This document shows positions 3,806 through 51,898 of a DNA stretch of 51,898 nt, piece by piece. Location of the stretch: positions 1-51,898 of the forward strand of contig JAMXAG010000019.1 of the NCBI GenBank assembly GCA_024281675.1, read 5' to 3'. The notes beneath the pieces are model-generated. The model searched no databases, had not been told where the DNA came from, and saw nothing but the letters and a program-made list of their open reading frames with translations. Every line of letters starts with the position of its first letter. Positions within the stretch are counted from its first letter, which is position 1. Origin of the DNA: Nitrosomonas sp. (GTDB lineage: Bacteria; Pseudomonadota; Gammaproteobacteria; Burkholderiales; Nitrosomonadaceae). A program made the position numbers and the translations under genes.

Positions 3806-6283
3806 TTACCCTATCATGGCTATTGAAGCATTGACTATACCTACCGTTTCGACCAGGTTCGGGTTTGCTACAAGGTTATTATTAAAGGGATCAACAATGA
3901 CAAAGTTTAGCGTTGAGTTATCTTGAATGCCTGTGAAAGCATGCCCTGCAGTATCTAAAATTGCGCCTTCGTCGATTGTTAAGTGGTAAGTACTGCCGAT
4001 GATTAATGCTTCATTGGCGTTGATGACCATAGTAATGCCATCCGGCAAAAAAGACACTTGATTGTCATCGGCAACATCAATGATACGGATATCAGTGCCA
4101 TTGCTGATGGTGATATTTCCGCTACCTGCAGTAATTTCGTCATCGAATCCCAGTAAAATGTCTTCAAAGGGAAATATTGCTGAATCATCTAGGGGCCAAC
4201 TTTGTATCAACGTAGGCGACGTTAGATCTTCAACAACAGAAAAATTAAGTGTTGTGTCGTCACCAATACCGGCATACGCGTATCCGCTAAAATCCCGAAT
4301 AGCACCGTGATCAATGTGTAAGCTGTAATTGGTCTGTGTTTGTAAATCTTCAGTCGGATTAATGATGACGGTATTTCCACTGAATACAACTTGATCGGGG
4401 TCAGTCACATTAATCGTACGAATATCGGAGCCATTACTGATCACAATGTTTCCACTACCTGCAAAAATAGCTTCATTAAAGTTTAAGTGAATACTATTGT
4501 CAGCCTCAAATGTACTTCCATCCATCGGATTGCTATCGATTAAAACCGGATCAGAAGGGATGGTAGTGAAATTCAGTGTGTTTTTATCCTGGATTCCCAA
4601 GTAAGCGTAACCATCGCTATCGACAATGACACCTTTGGCCATTTGAATGTGATAAGTGGTGTTGGGTACGAGATCTTCCACTGGATCGATGGTCATTTTG
4701 CCACGACCGCCGATTGTAACTTGAGTGCTGTCATTAATCGGGATGATACGCGTATCGGTGCCGTTACTGAGAATAATGTTCCCCTTTCCTGCTTCGACAA
4801 TTTCATCAAACCACAACTCGATGTCGCGATCCACGGAAAAACCAGTCGCGTCGTCTGATGGTATGCTGTTCATCAATTGAGGGTTCGAGGAAATTGTTCT
4901 GAAGTTTAAGGTGGTTTTGTCTTGGATGCCCGCATAGGGATTTCCATTTAAATCTGTAATCGCACCCTCATCGATCCGAATACTATAGTTCTTATTCTTC
5001 ATTAAGTCTCGAAATGGGTCAATCGTGACGCCTCCGAATTCATCAAAATGTACACGACTGGCATCATTAATGGGTATCGTCCGAGTATCTGCGCCATTAC
5101 TAATAATGATATTGCCTTTTCCAGCAATCACTTGCTCGTTAAAGTACAAGCTAATACTTTCGTCGTTTTTAAATGCCATTGACTCGTCCCATGGATTGCT
5201 ACCAAGTAAAATAGGAGTGGTCGAAATGGGCTCAAAATGGAGTGCAGTGTCTTCATTAAAACCTGCAAATGCATCGCCTTTTTCATCAGTAATTGCACCC
5301 GGGTCGATACGAATACTGTATTGAGTGCCCGCCTTAAAATCAAGAATAGGATCAATAATCACCAATCCAGATTCACTTAAAAAATTGACTTGACTAACAT
5401 CATGAATGGAAATGGTTTGAGTGTCTGTTCCATTGCTGATGATGATATTGCCATTGCCGGCCATGATTGGCGCATTGAAAAACAACTCGATCACGCCATC
5501 GGTTTGGATTGGGTTGAATTCATCTTGTAGGTTGCTTCCCCAAAATATGGGAGGTTGTGGTAAAGCTGCATAAAAACTTAGCTGTGTATTAGTGCTTTCT
5601 CCGAGATAAGGATTACCTTGTTGGTCAGTCACGATACCCGGATCAAATTGAACGGTGTACTGGGTATTCGGTATCAAATCTTCAGTGGGGTTGACGGTAA
5701 AGCCAAATTTTCCGACCGATACTTGACTGGTATCATGCATTGCAATAGTGCGTGTATCGTCGCCATTACTAATGATTATGTTACCTGCGCCAGAATTAAT
5801 TCTTTCGTCAAAAGCGAACTCAAGATCGGCGTTAGCTTCCAATCCGCCATGTAGGTTCGTGAAATTGAGTATCGGGTTAGAAACAATGGATGTAAAGTTG
5901 ATGCTATCGCCATTGGATAGACCAACAAACGTATTGCCTGCTCGATCTTTGATTGTCCCCGTTTCTATTTCGATACTGTAATGGGTGTTGGGTTTTAAAT
6001 CGACGGATGGTGTAATATGAACAGAACTTGCTTGACCGAAAGTATCATTGATGATCGTAACTTGACTCGTATCGGTGATCGAAATTCTACGTGTATCGTG
6101 CTCGCTACTAATGATGATTCTGCCATTACCCGCCTTGATTGGTTCATTGAAATTCAAAATAATCGGATTGTCGACTTTTAACGAGCTGTCGTTACCTGGT
6201 ATGCTAAAGGTGAGGATCGGTGGTGTTTTATCAGCATACTTAGCTTGTAAATCTTTGTTTCCTATCAAAGCACTAGAAGTCAT
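3806..6283 (-). CDS. Large protein of seven tandem bacterial Ig-like (SbsA/Big_5) domains
   Basis: 825 residues made almost wholly of seven repeats of about 105-115 residues. Each contains FNE-x-I-xAG-x-GNI, then an (I/V/L)SNG-x-D-(T/I)-R-x-I block, a D-x-(S/D)QV turn, a DL-x(5)-Y-x-I strand and a closing GAI-x-D-x-x-G...LNF. This is the Ig-like fold seen in SbsA-type surface proteins. There is no Sec signal at the start (MTSSALIGNKDLQAKYAD) and no transmembrane anchor or LPXTG; the last 40 residues lack a repeat and end ...VNASIAMIG. A type I secreted adhesin or matrix protein is plausible, but no transporter or RTX repeats are adjacent. Likely extracellular; function unknown. Confidence 0.8.
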   Translation of the reverse strand: MTSSALIGNKDLQAKYADKTPPILTFSIPGNDSSLKVDNPIILNFNEPIKAGNGRIIISSEHDTRRISITDTSQVTIINDTFGQASSVHITPSVDLKPNTHYSIEIETGTIKDRAGNTFVGLSNGDSINFTSIVSNPILNFTNLHGGLEANADLEFAFDERINSGAGNIIISNGDDTRTIAMHDTSQVSVGKFGFTVNPTEDLIPNTQYTVQFDPGIVTDQQGNPYLGESTNTQLSFYAALPQPPIFWGSNLQDEFNPIQTDGVIELFFNAPIMAGNGNIIISNGTDTQTISIHDVSQVNFLSESGLVIIDPILDFKAGTQYSIRIDPGAITDEKGDAFAGFNEDTALHFEPISTTPILLGSNPWDESMAFKNDESISLYFNEQVIAGKGNIIISNGADTRTIPINDASRVHFDEFGGVTIDPFRDLMKNKNYSIRIDEGAITDLNGNPYAGIQDKTTLNFRTISSNPQLMNSIPSDDATGFSVDRDIELWFDEIVEAGKGNIILSNGTDTRIIPINDSTQVTIGGRGKMTIDPVEDLVPNTTYHIQMAKGVIVDSDGYAYLGIQDKNTLNFTTIPSDPVLIDSNPMDGSTFEADNSIHLNFNEAIFAGSGNIVISNGSDIRTINVTDPDQVVFSGNTVIINPTEDLQTQTNYSLHIDHGAIRDFSGYAYAGIGDDTTLNFSVVEDLTSPTLIQSWPLDDSAIFPFEDILLGFDDEITAGSGNITISNGTDIRIIDVADDNQVSFLPDGITMVINANEALIIGSTYHLTIDEGAILDTAGHAFTGIQDNSTLNFVIVDPFNNNLVANPNLVETVGIVNASIAMIG

Positions 6284-6667
6284 TGCGTAGTCTCCGAATT
6301 AAAAGTAAACATTACGATTCATAACAATTACAACACGAGTAACAGTACATCAAAAAAGCAAATATTTCATATAGGTGACCTCTTATGCTCTATATGACAT
6401 ATGAGAACTTACAGATCTTTTTTTACCTTAGGATTTTACTCCATGTAACTACAATTTCTTAATTGAATAAAAATTGTTTTTAATGCGCATTAATGATAAT
6501 AAGAAATCCCACCACAAACGGCGAGGGATTAAATCTGAAAGAGATTAAGAATTTGATTAAGTATGTCTTGTTTATGGTTGATGATGCGAATCAGTTTTTC
6601 GGAGTCAGGGCCACGCAAAACTATCATCAGCCAAACGCTAAACTGGGTTTAGAGTTATCGTAGGGTT
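6284..6667. other. Intergenic region between exbD and the Ig-like gene
   Basis: An AT-rich stretch that should hold the promoter of the Ig-like gene (minus strand, 6284-6450). Around 6485-6510 is TTAATGATAATAAGAAAT, a weak partial match to a Fur box. Near 6590-6660 a short open frame (ANQFFGVRATQNYHQPNAKL, ending at a stop at 6659-6661) could be the tail of a lost gene; I could not identify it. No clear terminator for exbD was seen. Confidence 0.4.
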
Positions 6668-44182: not shown

Positions 44183-44267
44183 AGTTGCAGAAAAATAGCC
44201 ATCATATATTCATGAACTATAATATAAAGATGGTGGAACTAGAAATTTCAATAGTGATATGTGTTTT

Positions 44268-44286
44268 GTCAAAAATGGAGCCCATA
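44268..44286. repeat. IS-end-like motif, left copy
   Basis: GTCAAAAATGGAGCCCATA matches a motif at 51836-51854 at 18 of 19 positions, in the same orientation. In both places a short minus-strand frame ends about 8 bases inside it. It is probably the terminus of an insertion sequence whose body is lost here. The element is not identified. Confidence 0.45.
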
Positions 44287-44583
44287 TATTTAAACCACGG
44301 CTGCATAGCTACGCGCAAGAACTGGTGTAATGATTTCCTTACGCTGATTCATTTGGACGTTTCCTTTGTTCATCACAATGTTCCAGGTAATTTTCCAGAG
44401 AGCCATACTCAAGTTTCAATTCAAGCAAGGCCAGCTTGACGGGAAGCCATAGAAACACATTAATCCAGAAGAAACTATTGAAGCCGAGAAATTCCAGCAT
44501 TTTCATAAAATGAAAAGAATGCCGGTTTACAAAATAACAAAACATTTTTAACTCCTGTTTAGAGCAAAACTATTCCACCAAAA

Positions 44584-44961
44584 TTATAAAGCAATTGCTA
44601 ATAATTTATACAAAGGTAAGTTTGAAGTAATTTCTTGAGCACTTACCTGCTTTGTAGCAGGTAGTGTCAAAATGGAAATGACGATTGCCGCACCTGCAAC
44701 ACTTGCAACCTTTCTAAAACAGCTTTCTAAAATTTTCCTTCTTTCTGGATCTTTTTCTGTAACAAGTCCGCTTGCGGCTATAACTGATAGTTTATCCTCA
44801 TTGATGTAATCAGCGAGTTTCATACAAAGCGGGTCTGGTAATCCACTTTTGTTTGCTTTTGCGTTTCTTATATAACCAGTCGAAATTCCAAGAAATTTAG
44901 CAAGCTCGATCTGGCTTCCTGCCTTTTTCTCTGCTTTTTCAATGTAGTTTTTGAGTTCCAT
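44584..44961 (-). CDS. Phage repressor-like protein (DUF3693-type HTH with membrane segment)
   Basis: 125 residues. Residues 1-60 form a helix-turn-helix (KAGSQIELAKFLGISTGYIR), similar to DUF3693 proteins of filamentous phages; a single membrane helix lies near 85-103 (VASVAGAAIVISILTLPA). It is divergent from the phage genes, facing the operator palindromes. The reading frame crosses attL: the last residues (KLLAIAL) come from the shared core and host DNA. In the excised circle the same frame would continue for 32 codons after A122 (starting IERRRKFRRKYD), giving 154 residues. Probably represses the early promoter. Confidence 0.75.
   Translation of the reverse strand: MELKNYIEKAEKKAGSQIELAKFLGISTGYIRNAKANKSGLPDPLCMKLADYINEDKLSVIAASGLVTEKDPERRKILESCFRKVASVAGAAIVISILTLPATKQVSAQEITSNLPLYKLLAIAL
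44594..44621 (+). other. attL: hybrid dif site with degenerate XerD arm
   Basis: XerC arm ATTGCTAATAA (44594-44604), central TTTATA (44605-44610), then CAAAGGTAAGT (44611-44621) in place of a XerD arm. The first 17 bases are identical to attR. A poor XerD arm is typical of phage attP sites where only XerC makes the strand exchange. It lies inside the 3' end of the repressor gene. Confidence 0.8.
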
Positions 44962-44982
44962 AGTGCATTTGTCCTATTGACC

Positions 44983-45025
44983 GCAATAAAATAATTGCTG
45001 TATATTGAGCAATATATTTATTGCT
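44983..45025. promoter_or_regulatory. Repressor operator palindromes
   Basis: Two related inverted repeats upstream of the repressor start: GCAAT-n6-ATTGC (44983-44998) and the perfect AGCAATA-TATT-TATTGCT (45008-45025). Both are built on AGCAAT/ATTGCT and are 25 bases apart centre to centre. They are likely binding sites for the divergent HTH repressor and lie where both the repressor and early phage promoters should be. Confidence 0.75.
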
Positions 45026-45096
45026 GTCTGTGATTTTAAATCTGAGCAACAAATATATTACGCATTGAATCCCCTCAAGTCAAATAAGGGTATTAC

Positions 45097-45228
45097 ATGA
45101 TTTTAGTAATAAATACTTACTACCGAGCCTCTTTTGAAACGACAGAAGAAAGCATGAGTTTAGCCGGAAAGGTCGTGCGAAGAGCGCAAGCGATGAGCAA
45201 GACCGAACCGGTCACAACAATTTATTAA
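45097..45228 (+). CDS. Small phage ORF of 43 residues
   Basis: ATG at 45097 with AAGGG (45087-45090) upstream. Starts MILVINTYYRASFETTEESM and ends with a basic then polar stretch. Fills the space between the operators and the ssDNA-binding gene in the same direction. Function unknown; early filamentous-phage regions often have such small regulators. Confidence 0.5.
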   Translation: MILVINTYYRASFETTEESMSLAGKVVRRAQAMSKTEPVTTIY

Positions 45229-45244
45229 CCAAGGAGCATCAAAA

Positions 45245-45559
45245 ATGAAAATCCAAGTATTAGGCGTAAAACGCATGAGTGGAACCGCAAAAGAGTCAGG
45301 AAATCCCTTCGAAATGGCTACATTGTTGGCCATTGTTCCTATTGAAAATGTTTCTGGTTCTAAATTTAGTGTTCAAGGCTATGGCTATGAAGTTGGTGAA
45401 ATGTTGCTCGAACCAGATTGTATTAAACAATTTGAATCTTTCAAATTTCCCTGTGCTTTAGAACTTAGTATGGAACTTGTCAATTATCGCGGCAAGATTT
45501 CACAGATTGTAACCGGAACTTCAACTGCTCCTCAGGTTAAGTCAGTTTCGAATGGCTAA
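45245..45559 (+). CDS. Phage single-stranded DNA-binding protein (gene V-like)
   Basis: 104 residues with strong AAGGAG ribosome site. Beta-rich protein beginning MKIQVLGVKRMSGTAKESGN, with FSVQGYGYEVGEMLLEP and LELSMELVNYRGKISQIVTG, the pattern of the OB-fold ssDNA-binding proteins of Zot-type filamentous phages. It coats progeny single strands and blocks conversion to the double-stranded form. It precedes the replication gene, as in Vibrio and Xanthomonas inoviruses by order type. Confidence 0.7.
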   Translation: MKIQVLGVKRMSGTAKESGNPFEMATLLAIVPIENVSGSKFSVQGYGYEVGEMLLEPDCIKQFESFKFPCALELSMELVNYRGKISQIVTGTSTAPQVKSVSNG

Positions 45560-45638
45560 GTAACACTACGCCGTTCATTCCCATTTTGGGAATTTTTAAT
45601 AACTTGTGATGACTTTTTAACCTTAAATTTAAACGAGT

Positions 45639-46658
45639 ATGGCAAATGAAATCTTTATCGATTGGATCACCATTTCTCAGTTACATACAGAATCAGAACC
45701 GTTCCCAATCTTCACAGGTGGAATCAATGTCGACTACGACCCACTTGGCAATGCGCGTTTTGAACGAGTTCGCCCCGCAAATTTCAAAGGATCGTTTGAA
45801 ACTAGCCTTAGAATCAAAAGTGATGGTCGCCATATATCACTCAGTGGAAACGTTGGGCGGTTTTCTCGCAAAGACAACTTGTTTAATTCGTCGTGGGGAC
45901 AAACTCTTTCCAAGTGTAATCGAGTACTGCTGGCTAGAGGCTTACCAGCTTTCAATGCCGGAAAAATTAGGAATGCAATTGGTCAAGGAGACATCCCAAG
46001 TGCGCGAGTATCACGTATCGACCTTACCGCCAACTTTGAGACGGGTTCAGAATCACAAGCCAGAGCACTTATCCGGTGGCTTGCTAGTCGATCAGTATCC
46101 AGAATGAAAAAGGGAAGGGCTGGTGATGAATCTGTTTGGTGGGTTAACTCAAGACATATGCTTAAAGCTTACATCAAACACATTGAAATGCTGAAACATG
46201 GTTGTAATGAAGATGATCCGGCTTATATCTTCTGCAAAGAAAAAGGAGTCGTAAGGGTGGAAATAGAATTGAAACGTAGATTGCTCAGTGATCTAAATAT
46301 GGTTGAAATTAATGATATCAGTGATGAAAAGCTTATTCAGGTCTTCCATGAACAAACTGATATTTTCAATGCCGTAGACCGCAGCGATGAACCGGATATT
46401 TTAGACGCAATACCAACAAAGAGCAGGGTACATGCAGCCGCCTGGATGGCGGGGCAGGATCTCAGGCAACTGTTAAGCAATGGTACTTTTTACCGTCACG
46501 CTCGTGTCCTACGCGATTACGGTATTGATATCACAGAACCCCGCAATGTTGAAACCTTCCCCGTCAAGGTTCGCATCATCGAAATGAAACCCTTATCCAT
46601 GCCCGACTGGTACAGCTTAGAAGATGACGTACCACACTTAAAAGTAGTAGGAGAATAA
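45639..46658 (+). CDS. Phage replication initiation protein (gene II/X family)
   Basis: 339 residues, matching the Phage_CRI / gene II-X replication family: starts MANEIFIDWITISQLH (the IDWITIS motif), has SRIDLTANFETGSESQARAL and GVVRVEIELKRRLL, and ends with a helical part. It nicks the plus origin and starts rolling-circle replication. No clear ribosome site before the ATG apart from AACGAG. It is the replication gene that separates this element from IS or plasmid remnants. Confidence 0.8.
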   Translation: MANEIFIDWITISQLHTESEPFPIFTGGINVDYDPLGNARFERVRPANFKGSFETSLRIKSDGRHISLSGNVGRFSRKDNLFNSSWGQTLSKCNRVLLARGLPAFNAGKIRNAIGQGDIPSARVSRIDLTANFETGSESQARALIRWLASRSVSRMKKGRAGDESVWWVNSRHMLKAYIKHIEMLKHGCNEDDPAYIFCKEKGVVRVEIELKRRLLSDLNMVEINDISDEKLIQVFHEQTDIFNAVDRSDEPDILDAIPTKSRVHAAAWMAGQDLRQLLSNGTFYRHARVLRDYGIDITEPRNVETFPVKVRIIEMKPLSMPDWYSLEDDVPHLKVVGE

Positions 46659-46662
46659 AAAA

Positions 46663-46731
46663 ATGCTTATCTTAGTAATCATACTTTGTGCAATACCGTT
46701 TTTGCTTTTCGAATGGTATTACGCCGATTAA
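46663..46731 (+). CDS. Tiny hydrophobic phage protein of 22 residues (minor coat, pVII/pIX-like)
   Basis: ATG at 46663 with a GGAG ribosome site (about 46650). One hydrophobic helix (LILVIILCAIPFLLFEWYY) covers nearly the entire protein. Its position directly before the major coat gene is that of gene VII/IX in Ff phages. Too short for statistical support. Confidence 0.55.
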   Translation: MLILVIILCAIPFLLFEWYYAD

Positions 46732-46806
46732 ATTTCAGCCTGTAGACCCTTCAAAGAGGGGTTTACTGGGTGCAATTTCGCACCATTTAACTTAGGAGTC
46801 TTAAAA

Positions 46807-47007
46807 ATGAAACAATCGCATAAATACGCCGTGACGGTAGTAGGTGCTTCTTCACTGGTTCCTTTCTCAGTATTCGCCGCTGTCCCAGCAAGCGTCACCA
46901 CCGGAATCACTGACGCAGTAACAGACGTAGGAACGATTGGTGCTGCCATCATGGGTGTTGTAATCGTTATTGCTGCATTCTCTTGGATGCGTCGGATGGT
47001 CAAGTAA
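46807..47007 (+). CDS. Major coat protein (pVIII-like)
   Basis: 66 residues: signal peptide to about residue 24 (SLVPFSVFA-A), mature part of 42 residues with an amphipathic amino end, a hydrophobic core (IGAAIMGVVIVIAAFSW) and a basic carboxyl end (RRMVK) that would bind DNA. This matches filamentous phage major coats. A strong AGGAGT ribosome site precedes it and a strong terminator follows, giving a separate abundant transcript. Confidence 0.9.
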   Translation: MKQSHKYAVTVVGASSLVPFSVFAAVPASVTTGITDAVTDVGTIGAAIMGVVIVIAAFSWMRRMVK

Positions 47008-47027
47008 TCTCACAAGGATTACTGATT

Positions 47028-47062
47028 AAAAAAAGGGGGTCGAAACATGACCCCCATTTCAT
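47028..47062 (+). terminator. Strong terminator after the major coat gene
   Basis: Stem GGGGGTC / GACCCCC (47035-47041, 47049-47055) with 7-base loop, preceded by A7 and followed by ATTTCATT. Ff phages have a terminator in the same place, after gene VIII. Confidence 0.9.
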
Positions 47063-47077
47063 TCAAGGGGTTCAATC

Positions 47078-47422
47078 ATGGGCTTTAAATACAAAAATGT
47101 TTGTTATGAAACAAACACACAATTCCTCGAAGCATTCTCACAAGATTGTGGCGTTGTTGTAGGTGGTACTACAACAGCATCATATTATTCCTTGTGCAAA
47201 GTCAATGGCTCAACTGTTGAAATTCATGCCTTCTCGTATTCTAACAATGCCGAGATTAACCCAACACCCTTGCATACCATCACACCACAGTCATCATCCT
47301 GTGACTACTCAACAAGCGGCACATTCAGTAACACTGACATCATTGAACTTTCATGGCTTGTTGTCTCCGTATGGGTTGTTGCCTGGGGATTTAGAAAAAT
47401 GATCGAGGTACTCAAAAAATGA
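47078..47422 (+). CDS. Phage membrane protein of 114 residues
   Basis: Amino part is soluble with four cysteines (C9, C24, C40 and C75 in my count), rich in Ser/Thr, and a carboxyl helix (IIELSWLVVSVWVVAWGF) anchors it with a basic end. No signal peptide. It sits between the major coat and the adsorption gene, where other Zot phages carry a similar small protein; may be a minor structural protein. Not recognised by name. Confidence 0.6.
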   Translation: MGFKYKNVCYETNTQFLEAFSQDCGVVVGGTTTASYYSLCKVNGSTVEIHAFSYSNNAEINPTPLHTITPQSSSCDYSTSGTFSNTDIIELSWLVVSVWVVAWGFRKMIEVLKK

Positions 47423-47490
47423 TTGATTACGGAAACTTATCACTATTTATAGCCATTCTGGGGGCAGCATGGATACTCTTATCAAGATAA
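47419..47490 (+). CDS. Tiny hydrophobic phage protein of 23 residues (pIX-like)
   Basis: ATG overlaps the preceding stop (ATGA, 47419-47422) and its end overlaps the start of the adsorption gene. Sequence MIDYGNLSLFIAILGAAW... is one hydrophobic helix. Coupled overlaps on both sides argue for translation. Likely second minor coat protein. Confidence 0.6.
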   Translation: MIDYGNLSLFIAILGAAWILLSR

Positions 47491-48737
47491 TTATCATTAG
47501 CCTGCTACATCTAATTGTTACACCTGCTAATGCAATCTTTGTTGATATCAGCGACGCCAACGGTGCTTTGAGTGGTTGGATTAAAAACGCGGATGGTAAT
47601 TACTCCCAGGTATCAACCAATTCGACACGCTCCTTAGTTAACAATACAACGCTATCCGTAGCAGAAAAATTTCCTATCCAGACGACTAAAGGCATATTTC
47701 AAGCGGACATTACTCGTACTGCTTCTGTTGACCTTGCAAGGATGGGTAAAACAGTTGCAAGCATTGCTGTTGCAAGTGGCCCAGTTGGAATGACTTTAAC
47801 TGCTGTATCCCTCATTTGTGAATTAACGAATATTTGTAAAAATGCGTTAGATGAATGGCGGCTTGGTTATGTCAATGAAACTTTGCCAAGTGGTTCTACT
47901 ATTTGGAACTGCTCCGGCTTTGGTAATATGACTCTTTCCGCATGCAAACAAAATATACATCAATGTAATGATCCTACCTATGTTTGTTATGATGATTCTG
48001 TCTCTTCTGATGGTCTTACCTATACCTTTTATAAAAAGTATTCGTCTAGTAATCAAGTTATTGGTGTTTCTTATCTTACTCGCTCAACAGCCTGGGTTCC
48101 TAATAACAATTCAGGCACTGTTCCTACTGCATCTGACTGGACATCCAAAGAACAGCTTTTAAACGATCCCCGCTTTACCCCTGAATTAATTGCCAAAGAT
48201 CAACCTGTTCCTATTGGTATACCTTCTCTTCCTTCAGTCTGGAAAGCACCCATCGATAAAACAACTACAACACTCAAGGACGGTTCAGGCAATGTTACAG
48301 GAACGGAAGAATCAACCACTGACGCAGAAATATCAAATCCTACTTCACAAGAAAATCCTACGAATAATCCTAATCTTGTTAAGGTCACTGAAACGACAGT
48401 AAAAAACACCTACAACATCAATAATCAGTTAACCAGTAGCACGACCATAACAACAGGTAATCAGAATCAGCAACCACAGCCACAAGGCTTTGAAATTGAT
48501 ATTGATAACATGACCGATCAACCGCTTGAAGAAAGGGCAATACCTGGCACTTTTTCATACACCTCTTGGGGTTCTGGTTCATGTCCTGCAGATCGTAGTG
48601 TTAATTATCACTATGGAACCTTAAACCTGACTTTCCAGCCTGCCTGTGATGCTGCTGTAATGGCCAATCCTGTCATTATTGCAATCGCTGGTCTTGCTGC
48701 GATGTTCATTATTTCAGGAGCATTGCGCAATGATTAG
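47469..48737 (+). CDS. Adsorption/attachment minor coat protein (pIII-like)
   Basis: 422 residues: signal peptide (MDTLIKIIIISLLHLIVTPA, cleavage near ANA-I at 24), a long domain with paired cysteines (for example CELTNICKN, CSGFGNMTLSACKQNIHQCN), a Thr/Asn/Gln-rich linker (about 270-345) like pIII glycine linkers, another domain with CPADRS and FQPACDAA, and a carboxyl membrane helix (PVIIAIAGLAAMFIISG). This is the architecture of filamentous phage tip proteins that bind pili and TolA. Host specificity cannot be told. Confidence 0.8.
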   Translation: MDTLIKIIIISLLHLIVTPANAIFVDISDANGALSGWIKNADGNYSQVSTNSTRSLVNNTTLSVAEKFPIQTTKGIFQADITRTASVDLARMGKTVASIAVASGPVGMTLTAVSLICELTNICKNALDEWRLGYVNETLPSGSTIWNCSGFGNMTLSACKQNIHQCNDPTYVCYDDSVSSDGLTYTFYKKYSSSNQVIGVSYLTRSTAWVPNNNSGTVPTASDWTSKEQLLNDPRFTPELIAKDQPVPIGIPSLPSVWKAPIDKTTTTLKDGSGNVTGTEESTTDAEISNPTSQENPTNNPNLVKVTETTVKNTYNINNQLTSSTTITTGNQNQQPQPQGFEIDIDNMTDQPLEERAIPGTFSYTSWGSGSCPADRSVNYHYGTLNLTFQPACDAAVMANPVIIAIAGLAAMFIISGALRND

Positions 48738-49023
48738 TAAAATATTATTTCCTCTCGGTAAATTCTTTGAATCCAATATTGGTGCGCTGGTACATAAAGG
48801 TCTTGCCGCTGCTGGCATCGGGATCATTTCATATGCTGCTGTATCAACCGCTTTTGATGCAGTTTTATCGCTTGCTCAATCACATTACAACAATATAGGT
48901 GTTGATATGCTTTCCTTGATGGGGTTGGGCGGTATTGGTGAAGCTATGGGCATTATCGTTGGTGCTATGACTTTCAAAATAACAATGACAACCGTCAAAC
49001 GATTAGGGCTAAAACAATCATGA
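48730..49023 (+). CDS. Minor coat protein pVI-like (DUF2523 type)
   Basis: 97 residues from the ATG at 48730 (MISKILFPLGKFFESNIGAL), overlapping the pIII-like stop by 8 bases; a frame extended into pIII is an artefact. Three hydrophobic segments, ending IIVGAMTFKITMTTVKRLGL. Overlaps zot by ATGA. Position and topology match pVI of Zot-type phages. Confidence 0.8.
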   Translation: MISKILFPLGKFFESNIGALVHKGLAAAGIGIISYAAVSTAFDAVLSLAQSHYNNIGVDMLSLMGLGGIGEAMGIIVGAMTFKITMTTVKRLGLKQS

Positions 49024-49952
49024 GCATAACTCTATTAACCGCTGTACCCGGTGGTGGGAAAACTTCTTATGCCGTTTGGAATGTCATTAAAACAGCTTTT
49101 GAAGAAGGAAAAATCATTTATACCGTTGGAATACCTAAACTGACCATACCAACCATTGAATTGACCTATGATCAAGTCAAACAATGGTACAAAACCAGTG
49201 AAAATAAAGAAGGCTTACCGGAGTTAATCAATATAGAGCATGGCTCTATCATTGTTATTGATGAAGTTCAAAGAATCTGGCCTGCAACTGGATCAAAAAT
49301 AACCGATGACATCAAAGAACTAAGCGTACATCGTCATTATGGGCTTACTTTATTCCTGATTACACAAGCGCCGAATCTGATTCATCGAAATGTATTGGCT
49401 TTAGTGGATCGTCATTTGCATATTGGCGTTAATTGGGCAGGAAGAAAGATTTATGAGTGGTCAGAATATTGTCGGACACCCTCAACTAAAACGAGTAAAG
49501 ATTCAGCAATAACATTCAATTACAAGCTACCAAAAGAATCATTTCAGCTTTATCACTCAGCAACTCAGCACGTAAAACCCACCAAACGCGCTCCAATGGC
49601 TTTTTTTGTCTTTACCCTTGCCTTGGTATTAACCGTTGTGTTTGGATTCTTCGGATATCAGCGTGTCATTGCGAAATCAGCCCCTGTTGAAGAAACGATC
49701 CTATCCGAAACAAAACCAGAAATTATTCCTGTTGCACAGTCCGAACCTATTAAACCAATAGAAATATTAAAACCGCTATTCAATACACAACTACTCACGG
49801 CTGATATTGATTGGAGTGAAGTAACAGTATGTTTACAAAGCGAGAAGGGGGAGTGCGCTTGTTATGGAACCTCCGCGCAGCGGCTAGTAGTACCTAAAGA
49901 ATCATGTGAACTTGCAGTGAAATTTGGTTGGTCAAGAAAAACAAAGGCTTAA
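49020..49952 (+). CDS. zot: Zot/pI assembly ATPase
   Basis: 310 residues. Walker A in TAVPGGGKTSYAVW, Walker B IIVIDEVQRIWP, sensor-type LFLITQAPNLIHRNVLALVDRH; a single membrane helix about 198-218 (MAFFVFTLALVLTVVFGFFGY) separates the cytoplasmic ATPase from a short periplasmic tail containing four cysteines (VCLQSEKGECACYG and CELAV). It drives particle extrusion through the inner membrane. No pIV secretin is encoded, so the phage must use a host secretin. Confidence 0.92.
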   Translation: MSITLLTAVPGGGKTSYAVWNVIKTAFEEGKIIYTVGIPKLTIPTIELTYDQVKQWYKTSENKEGLPELINIEHGSIIVIDEVQRIWPATGSKITDDIKELSVHRHYGLTLFLITQAPNLIHRNVLALVDRHLHIGVNWAGRKIYEWSEYCRTPSTKTSKDSAITFNYKLPKESFQLYHSATQHVKPTKRAPMAFFVFTLALVLTVVFGFFGYQRVIAKSAPVEETILSETKPEIIPVAQSEPIKPIEILKPLFNTQLLTADIDWSEVTVCLQSEKGECACYGTSAQRLVVPKESCELAVKFGWSRKTKA

Positions 49953-49974
49953 TTTAATTTCAGGAGTTTTAAAG

Positions 49975-50151
49975 ATGAAACAATCGCAAGAAAGATTTAA
50001 TTATTTAATGGAAACACGCGATGAGCAACGAATGATTCTTTATTTGCAACATGATTCTTTAACGCCTGATGAGAAGGAAGCAACTGAAGCAATAGTTGCA
50101 GATCTTGAAGCAGAACTTGAAGAATATGGTTTGGTTTTTGAAAAGAACTAG
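49975..50151 (+). CDS. Small acidic phage protein of 58 residues
   Basis: ATG at 49975 with CAGGAG ribosome site. Starts MKQSQERFNYLMETRDEQRM; highly helical and acidic, with a coiled-coil-like end. The ribosome site and first five codons copy those of the major coat gene at 25 of 27 bases. Function unknown; last gene of the structural run. Confidence 0.6.
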   Translation: MKQSQERFNYLMETRDEQRMILYLQHDSLTPDEKEATEAIVADLEAELEEYGLVFEKN

Positions 50152-50159
50152 CAGGAAAT

Positions 50160-50331
50160 CTTGAAAGGAGGCTCCGAGGCTTGCCCGAAGGGCAAATGCA
50201 GGAGTTCTCAAGTTTCCGTCAGCGGGTCATCATTGGCGGTCGGCTTTGCCGAGCCGCCGCTCTTACCTTAAATTGCCTTCCTTCTGCTAAACTGGGGTTT
50301 TTAGGTTATTGAACAAAAGGAAATCTTAAGA
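50160..50331. other. Phage intergenic region with hairpins (candidate origin or packaging signal)
   Basis: Two strong hairpins: TTGCCC-GAA-GGGCAA (50181-50195) and GGCGGTCGGC-TTT-GCCGAGCCGCC (50235-50258, one bulge). This GC-rich structured DNA in an AT-rich phage, at the end of the structural genes, is where filamentous phages keep the plus-strand origin and packaging signal. The nick site itself is not identified. Confidence 0.55.
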
Positions 50332-50556
50332 ATGAATTCGGATTGCAATATTAGTAATAGATCAATAATTACTTGTCCAAACTGTGGATATAAAAGAATC
50401 GAAGTTATGCCTACTGATGCTTGCCAATACTTTTATGACTGTAAGAATTGTGGAGTCTTGCTGAAACCAAAATTAGGGGATTGCTGCGTTTTTTGTTCTT
50501 ATGGTTCTATTAAATGTCCACCTATGCAACTGCAAGAGCATCATTGTTGTTCATAA
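50332..50556 (+). CDS. GDCCVxC-domain cysteine-rich protein
   Basis: 74 residues: CPNCGYKR and CKNCG form a zinc-ribbon pair, followed by KLGDCCVFCSYGSIKCPP, the core of the GDCCVxC family (some homologues carry selenocysteine). From memory this family often accompanies metal or mercury genes on mobile DNA; its function is not established. As cargo of a filamentous phage it may give the host a metal- or redox-related benefit. AAGGAAA ribosome site upstream. Confidence 0.8.
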   Translation: MNSDCNISNRSIITCPNCGYKRIEVMPTDACQYFYDCKNCGVLLKPKLGDCCVFCSYGSIKCPPMQLQEHHCCS

Positions 50557-50663
50557 GAAATTATTTTAAAGCTTTGTCACGCCCAATGGTCTCGCAACGG
50601 ACATGCTACCCGATTCCTAACACGGTTTTTATTTGCTCCTGACTTTCTTGTTTCTGAACAAAA

Positions 50664-50981
50664 TTAGCGTGGTTGGAACATGATAATTCCCATTCCAGCT
50701 AATGCTATCAGTGCGCCTGCTATATCCCATTGTGTGGGTCGTATTCCATCAACGCCCCAAAGCCACAAAATAGCCATACCAATATACACGCCGCCATAAG
50801 CTGCATATACTCGCCCGGCTGCCGTTTCATGCATTGTTAGTAGCCAAGCGAATGCAGCCAAACTGATAGCAGCGGGTATTAATAGCCAAATGGATCGATC
50901 TTCTCTCAACCACAGATATGGTAAGTAGCATCCGACAATTTCAGCAAGCGCAGTAGCGATGTACAGCAAAAATGTTTTCAT
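50664..50981 (-). CDS. ynfA: YnfA family membrane protein
   Basis: 105 residues from the ATG at 50981 ([20 protein letters not shown]), the usual start; an upstream ATG adds 16 residues not seen in the family. Four membrane helices, with [14 protein letters not shown] and [12 protein letters not shown] typical of YnfA (UPF0060), a relative of small multidrug resistance exporters. Possible efflux of cationic or metal compounds. It is opposite in direction to the phage genes, typical of cargo with its own promoter. Confidence 0.9.
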
Positions 50982-51068
50982 ACGTGTGATTAATTCCCCA
51001 TTAATATACTGGTTTATATTTTGCTCCAACAGTCGCTAAACTTCTTTATTTTTTGGAATAACTTTAGC

Positions 51069-51314
51069 ATGACTGATTTTTCAAATCTTCGAAATCTATA
51101 CTGGCACATTCGGGATACCCGCAATGCATCCAAGAAACGTAAATATTATCGGTATGTAGAGAAAGAAAAAAAACGCCTGATCGAAGAAACAGGCGTTGAT
51201 TCGGAAGAACTGCGGCTTTATTGCAGAACGCTTGCTACTCGGTTAAATATTCACGCCGAAAGACATTTAGAGAATTATAGAAAAAGTCGACCAAAAGATC
51301 ATACTTCCGTCTAA
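51069..51314 (+). CDS. Charged phage-end protein of 81 residues
   Basis: From the ATG at 51069 (MTDFSNLRNLYWHIRDTRNA); highly charged and helical, rich in Lys, Arg and Glu, no membrane part. Divergent from ynfA with 87 bases between starts. Not recognised. Its 3' end overlaps, on the other strand, the sequence that would extend the repressor in the excised form. Confidence 0.5.
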   Translation: MTDFSNLRNLYWHIRDTRNASKKRKYYRYVEKEKKRLIEETGVDSEELRLYCRTLATRLNIHAERHLENYRKSRPKDHTSV

Positions 51315-51331
51315 ATTTCCTCCTACGTTCT

Positions 51332-51359
51332 ATTGCTAATAATTTATATTATGTAAAAT
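51332..51359 (+). other. attR: dif-like XerCD recombination site
   Basis: XerC arm ATTGCTAATAA (51332-51342), central TTTATA (51343-51348), XerD arm TTATGTAAAAT (51349-51359). Against E. coli dif the XerD arm matches 10 of 11, the central region 5 of 6 and the XerC arm 7 of 11. It appears to be a complete functional dif regenerated at the right junction. Confidence 0.82.
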
Positions 51360-51526
51360 GATAAATATAATATCAATAATAATCAATTACTTACGAAATG
51401 GTCTTTTTGGTATCGTTCCAGCCTACTCTCGGCGTGCCGATTTTGCTGGCGGCGGACAATTACTTTGAAACATTGAGACAAATGATTTGAGACAGAGATT
51501 TATTGCAAGACACCATGTGATTTTCT

Positions 51527-51814: not shown

Positions 51815-51831
51815 AACTCTAACTGAGGTAT

Positions 51832-51898
51832 GTTGTCAAAAATGGAGTCCATAGGTTTAAGCAGCGAGTAGATTTGCATAGTACTGCTGCGAAAATTG
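51832..51898. mobile_element. Probable insertion-sequence end running off the right edge
   Basis: Begins TGTTGTCAAAAATGGAGTCC and shares GTCAAAAATGGAG-y-CCATA with 44268-44286. A minus-strand frame (FSQQYYANLLAA then stop) comes in from beyond the edge and stops just inside it, as a transposase 3' end would. The family is not identified. Confidence 0.45.

Follow-up and report, generated by a model that had tools for sequence, protein, structure and literature searches.

A repressor gene that appears to be split by its own attachment site in dif-integrating filamentous phages

Filamentous phages multiply without killing their hosts, and their choice between multiplication and integration is mostly unexplained. 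In the filamentous phage XacF1, attP is located inside the 3' part of ORF12, which encodes an HTH regulator, and the gene is split when the phage integrates through the host XerCD/dif system (PMC5666396, PMC4076744). When the 5' part of ORF12 is missing, integration is delayed and the prophage becomes unstable (PMC5666396), hence the gene acts in lysogeny. In the Ralstonia filamentous phage phiRSS0, which also uses host XerCD, ORF13 may encode a regulator and has a dif-like attP at its 3' end (PMC3816273). Outside the filamentous phages, mycobacteriophage BPs and its relatives have integration-dependent immunity, with attP inside the repressor ORF. In BPs the full repressor has 136 aa and the prophage form 103 aa, about 30 residues shorter at the C-terminus; the short repressor is stable and active, and the long form is degraded (PMC4557955). 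Both the location of attP inside a filamentous-phage regulator gene (XacF1) and the logic of the switch (BPs) are already known. The original prediction for the locus analyzed here knew of no such case in filamentous phages, a statement contradicted by the XacF1 papers (PMC4076744, PMC5666396) and by the records of Cf2, phiLf and phiXv2, in which an att or XerC/D recombination feature is annotated inside the repressor CDS.

The window is the whole stretch of 51,898 nucleotides from Nitrosomonas sp. that was analyzed. The features relevant to the repressor are as follows.

44584..44961, minus strand: repressor gene in its integrated form (125 aa), with an HTH head, a hydrophobic helix and its last codons past att in flanking DNA.
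44594..44610, unstranded: left att repeat inside the repressor ORF, with the XerC-type arm and core kept and the phage-side arm degenerate.
44611..51348, unstranded: filamentous prophage body of 6738 bp at a dif-like integration site, delimited by the direct repeat and the unit length.
44979..45028, unstranded: inverted repeats upstream of the repressor, a putative operator with arms of 21 nt that are 81% complementary.
51072..51314, plus strand: small ORF at the right end of the phage, here called rend, antisense to most of the repressor tail and matching PHROG 27692 (E 3.8e-7).
51235..51331, minus strand: tail of the repressor in the circular form, encoding residues 123-154 and the stop codon and continuing the frame of the head once the ends are joined.
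51332..51359, plus strand: right att, a complete dif-like site with XerC-type arm, core and XerD-type arm.

The 17-bp direct repeat ATTGCTAATAATTTATA is present at 44594-44610 and 51332-51348, and positions 51339-51359 are the sole exact match in this genome to the dif pattern used. The arms are those that we take to be XerC-type and XerD-type by comparison with E. coli dif. Profile searches identified RstB-like, G2P-like replication, coat-like, pVI-like and Zot/pI genes in the order typical of filamentous phages, and found no phage integrase among the 11 scanned prophage ORFs. The prophage is probably an XerCD/dif-integrating member of the Inoviridae, with a presumed dependence on XerC and XerD suggested by the site. 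It also contains a UPF0060/YnfA membrane protein gene at 50664-50978, possibly cargo. Just outside the right dif-like site, 51349-51480 reads as another tail (LCKMINIISIIINYLRNGLFGIVPAYSRRADFAGGGQLL) that resembles those of L047 and L042 and has a rend-like end on the opposite strand; this is probably the leftover end of an older, oppositely oriented phage. An imperfect direct repeat (TTGTCAAAAATGGAG...) flanks the prophage outside both ends (44263-44310 and 51830-51880, near the contig end) and is perhaps part of another mobile element.

The repressor matches a transcriptional regulator family (PHROG 638, E 5.6e-12). Its Pfam matches to HTH_3 and YdaS are below the cut-off, a PDB profile search returned a single weak match (3kxa, E 0.0011), and a tblastn search against annotated phages returned none. 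There is no match to Pfam DUF3693 (PF12472) at E up to 0.1, the domain matched by the regulators of Cf1c, SMA6, PSH1 and SHP2. The original prediction had the repressor crossing att and ending KLLAIAL at 125 aa, and this is what the ORF at 44961-44584 does, with the left repeat inside it. It had also foreseen 32 open codons after residue 122 in the excised circle, and computational joining of the prophage ends at the repeat bears this out: the frame runs unbroken through the computed attP junction to a stop at 51235-51237 and gives 154 aa with a basic tail ending KLLAIERRRKFRRKYDLLVDFFYNSLNVFRREYLTE. The proposed comparison with related phages likewise came out in its favor, since both the frame across att and the tail are kept in them.

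Relatives of the repressor were found in 25 of 125 genomes of the family. Of 32 distinct heads, 25 have a dif-core-like motif in their 3' part, compared to 49 of 6210 background intervals of 140 nt, and 15 of the 32 ORFs end at most 20 nt from the start of this motif. Heads ending near it finish in ...YIM, ...ILC or ...YYVK, the three phases of one core. One close relative (L156) comes from a metagenome bin titled Alphaproteobacteria, which may reflect a binning error or a host jump.

When both prophage ends were joined, the gene continued in all 13 prophages of a first set, yielding proteins of 130-163 aa; in L064, for example, the 123 aa of the integrated form become 160 aa. With two IMG/VR phages added, of which L087 succeeds and L086 fails, 14 of 15 phages read through their own att into tails that extend 34-43 codons past the core and have a net charge of +3 to +9. 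This set covers heads with an identified opposite end, leaving aside those at contig ends or with missing or degenerate sites; L042 and L044, whose ends pair crosswise, were counted apart, and L071 has a broken gene. The left ends of L047 and L048, whose DNA is like the chromosomal flanks of other loci, were retained since rend homologues are found there. An open tail, defined as at least 28 codons, is present in 14 of 15 cases when read in the phase of the head, versus 3 of 30 for the other two phases (Fisher P 5.6e-8) and 2 of 15 for the chromosomal continuation. The 15 heads are distributed over the three phases as 7, 7 and 1, and the opposite end, at a distance of 6.4-10.8 kb, fits the phase of the head in its own phage.

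The prophages fall into two classes by att orientation: in class A a degenerate XerC-type arm at the head is paired with a good XerD-type arm, while in class B (the window, L041 and the L042 head) the gene leads to a XerC-type arm. The split-repressor design occurs with att in either orientation with respect to the gene. In class A, counted without the two class B phages (the window and L041), 12 of 13 heads are in frame with their own tails versus 37% with the tails of other phages (permutation P 0.000165, 200,000 shuffles). The phages are related, and both P values therefore imply more independent events than there are.

These counts reject a chance open frame, and they bear on the idea that the tail stays open as a by-product of rend, the antisense gene, or by chance. 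Most of the window tail is indeed antisense to rend (51072-51314), and rend homologues lie near the left ends of several relatives. However, an antisense gene cannot know the phase of the head, and the difference between own and other phases (14/15 against 3/30) would not be produced by it. Furthermore, six of 13 checked prophages (L043, L045, L046, L062, L063 and L064) have no detected rend at that end, and in L070 rend is located only about 1 kb away, yet all of these tails are open in phase; in the window itself the ERRRK codons fall beyond the rend stop. We regard this by-product explanation as hardly credible. The kept frame match between the separated halves instead suggests that the long form is used. 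We infer with good support that the free-phage protein does include the tail, since selection for matching frames between ends that lie 6-11 kb from each other can act only in a molecule that joins them.

In genome G089, prophages L042 and L044 face each other across one dif-like site (around 2801819-2801846). Their heads are out of frame with their own tails (4 and 22 codons) and in frame with each other's (36 and 35 codons), so that the crosswise pairing succeeds in both cases. The arm types pair crosswise as well, making an inversion between the two prophages their likely history. Among the joined phages, only L086 (positions 666 and 8559) has a tail (YVKLNNRRKQFRRKFDKF...) in a different phase from its own head; it is perhaps a recombinant of two phages. 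Two further IMG/VR contigs, L085 and L088, which are only possibly closed circles, gave no read-through tail when joined end to start.

The same arrangement was observed in the Xanthomonas/Stenotrophomonas-type phages. One continuous regulator CDS passes through att in all eight phage records considered (Cf1c, XacF1, SMA6, PSH1, SHP2, Cf2, phiLf and phiXv2); SMA7 and further phiLf records with a similar regulator were left out of the eight. The first five encode regulators of 148-166 aa that run 24-40 residues past the dif-like core in three phases, the XacF1 regulator being nearly the same protein as that of Cf1c and SMA6 being a proviral record. In these same five records (L074-L078), a second gene on the same strand starts at the tail stop, with a 4-nt overlap or a 2-nt gap; this gene, too, would thus be separated from the repressor promoter on integration. 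Among 64 IMG/VR loci matching the Cf1c regulator, some align no further than residue 141 and others start to align at residue 124 or beyond, the pattern that a gene divided into two ends should produce. Pfam matches to DUF3693 were found in 4 of 369 genomes of the class. The record of Aeromonas phage MBa-2020a has no annotation and no strong dif-like site.

A spacer of 23, 24 or 25 nt separates the core from the standard tail motif, and where head and tail are in phase its length agrees with the three phases of the heads. Of 53 Xanthomonas-type heads examined, 51 have a core and 46 of these are distinct. A head-tail mismatch in chromosomes was considered as a sign of selection and set aside: a standard tail lies within 180 nt in 20 of the 46, with 4 in phase and 16 out of phase, which is weak against the one third expected and may be affected by the collapse of identical tandems in assemblies.

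Selection on the tail was estimated from pN/pS. For the Xanthomonas-type tails (21 distinct tails from 37 copies) the ratio equals 0.40 in the tail frame, compared to 2.60 and 1.58 in the other sense frames and 2.07, 0.46 and 2.04 in the antisense frames, the value of 0.46 belonging to the frame that shares its variable codon position with the tail frame. The Nitrosomonas-group tails gave 0.53-0.64 against 0.78-1.09 in other frames, from 3 to 10 pairs and with weaker support than the Xanthomonas-type. Tail chemistry differs between the two groups, being mostly hydrophobic in the Xanthomonas-type and mostly basic in the Nitrosomonas group, where a doubled basic patch like RRxxxRRKxD was noted by eye in 9 of 17 aligned tails. 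By raw count, a 17-residue stretch with mean Kyte-Doolittle value above 1.6 follows the HTH in 25 of 29 heads, and an AxA motif follows this stretch in 19 of 29. Together these look like a signal-anchor with a peptidase site, behind which a basic or hydrophobic tail could hold the end of the protein in the cytoplasm.

We propose that in these dif-integrating filamentous phages the attachment site lies within the repressor gene and divides it. When the prophage ends are joined, the head with its HTH and hydrophobic helix runs in frame into the far-end tail of 34-43 codons; in the chromosome, it continues into whatever DNA adjoins att. With less support than for the tail itself, the short and long forms may differ in activity, so that integration itself would change the repressor and, as the original prediction suggested, the phage might sense its integration in this way. 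The short form would be expected to serve the prophage, and the tailed form, while the circle replicates, may be a weaker repressor, have a shorter life or take another place in the membrane; altered topology or stability is conceivable, given that a TM-like helix precedes the basic tail, but this step is a guess. By analogy, we expect the same direction as in BPs, with the short form stable and active and the long form not. Taken as a whole (a gene split by att, a tail real in the free phage and two forms of different activity), this explanation is the best available to us, at a little under an even chance of being correct.

The integrated ends leave room for another account, in which the free phage needs the tail and its loss on integration is tolerated, att sitting at the 3' end as the least harmful place without any switch. 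The integrated forms stop within 4 codons past the core in 8 of 13 prophages of the first set, but chromosomal ends range from 1 to 35 codons after it and look arbitrary, and several heads acquire the ends of other phages. The continuation is long in L048 and L056 (2 of 15) and reaches 19 codons in L045 and 11 in L041; integration therefore does not always shorten the protein. On the other hand, the same layout is found in two phage groups and in both att orientations, and the placement of att in a lysogeny regulator, of all genes, would be unexpected if neutral, although this last point is an argument only. We consider such tolerated loss somewhat unlikely.

Two other relations between the forms were weighed. 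In one, a full switch as in BPs, the tail would be a degradation signal by which the free-phage repressor is destroyed, and integration would stabilize it. The geometry is shared, with 136 versus 103 aa in BPs (PMC4557955) and 154 versus 125 aa here. None of the 16 read-through tails listed ends in LAA or AA, the window tail ending LTE, and the standard Xanthomonas tail mostly ends RTGQ, which makes this reading improbable even though the PSH1, L106 and L113 tails end in EIAA or ELAA. Such endings are likened to the motif of the ssrA tag. Certain gammaproteobacterial tails, ending DEIAA, KEIAA or ELAA (L076 at 5921-6394, L106 and L113), resemble it, and these loci would be a better place than the window to seek a mechanism of the BPs type. 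In the other, the tailed form would be the stronger repressor, and integration would weaken it and so favor the output of phage by the prophage. In support of this, selection acts on the tail in the circle, and its extra basic residues could aid DNA binding; against this, the XacF1 prophage depends on the regulator gene for its stability (PMC5666396) and the integrated copy keeps the head only, although free copies may coexist. We rate a stronger tailed form as very unlikely.

If the preferred reading of an att-split repressor with two unlike forms is extended across the filamentous phages that integrate at dif in beta- and gammaproteobacteria, XerCD recombination would act as their lysogeny switch: the repressor would carry in the circle a tail that alters its membrane topology or lifetime and lose it on integration, and phages stacked or facing each other at dif would trade tails and thereby change their neighbors' repressors. 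This generalization is tentative, conceivable but short of an even chance. If true, a repressor end set by host XerCD would tie the choice between multiplication and integration to the host's chromosome-dimer machinery without the need for a phage integrase. In the annotation of such prophages, the repressors would then lack the tail encoded in the free phage. The frame-coupling test is general and can reveal selection on genes that prophage annotation shows cut in two.

A search of the open-licence literature turned up nothing on frame coupling in filamentous phages or on their repressors having two forms; the breadth of the arrangement, the frame coupling and the evidence of selection therefore appear to be new within the literature searched. 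The arrangement is distinct from active lysogeny, in which a prophage interrupts a host gene that excision restores, whereas here the split gene is the phage's own and the host site is dif-like. Similar to BPs, attP lies inside the repressor ORF and integration shortens the window protein from 154 to 125 aa. In contrast, BPs is a dsDNA tailed phage with its own integrase and its long form ends in an ssrA-like degradation tag, which the tails of the Nitrosomonas group do not have; activity was measured for both BPs forms, while the Nitrosomonas-group forms are known from sequence alone. The phiRSS0 ORF13 is likened to the window repressor by its published description and not by sequence. The closest likeness among filamentous phages is to XacF1 ORF12 and the Cf1c 18.2K regulator, which share a dif-type att within the 3' portion of a gene for an HTH regulator; the window repressor differs from them in having no DUF3693, and the XacF1 papers compare no short and long protein forms in the text available.
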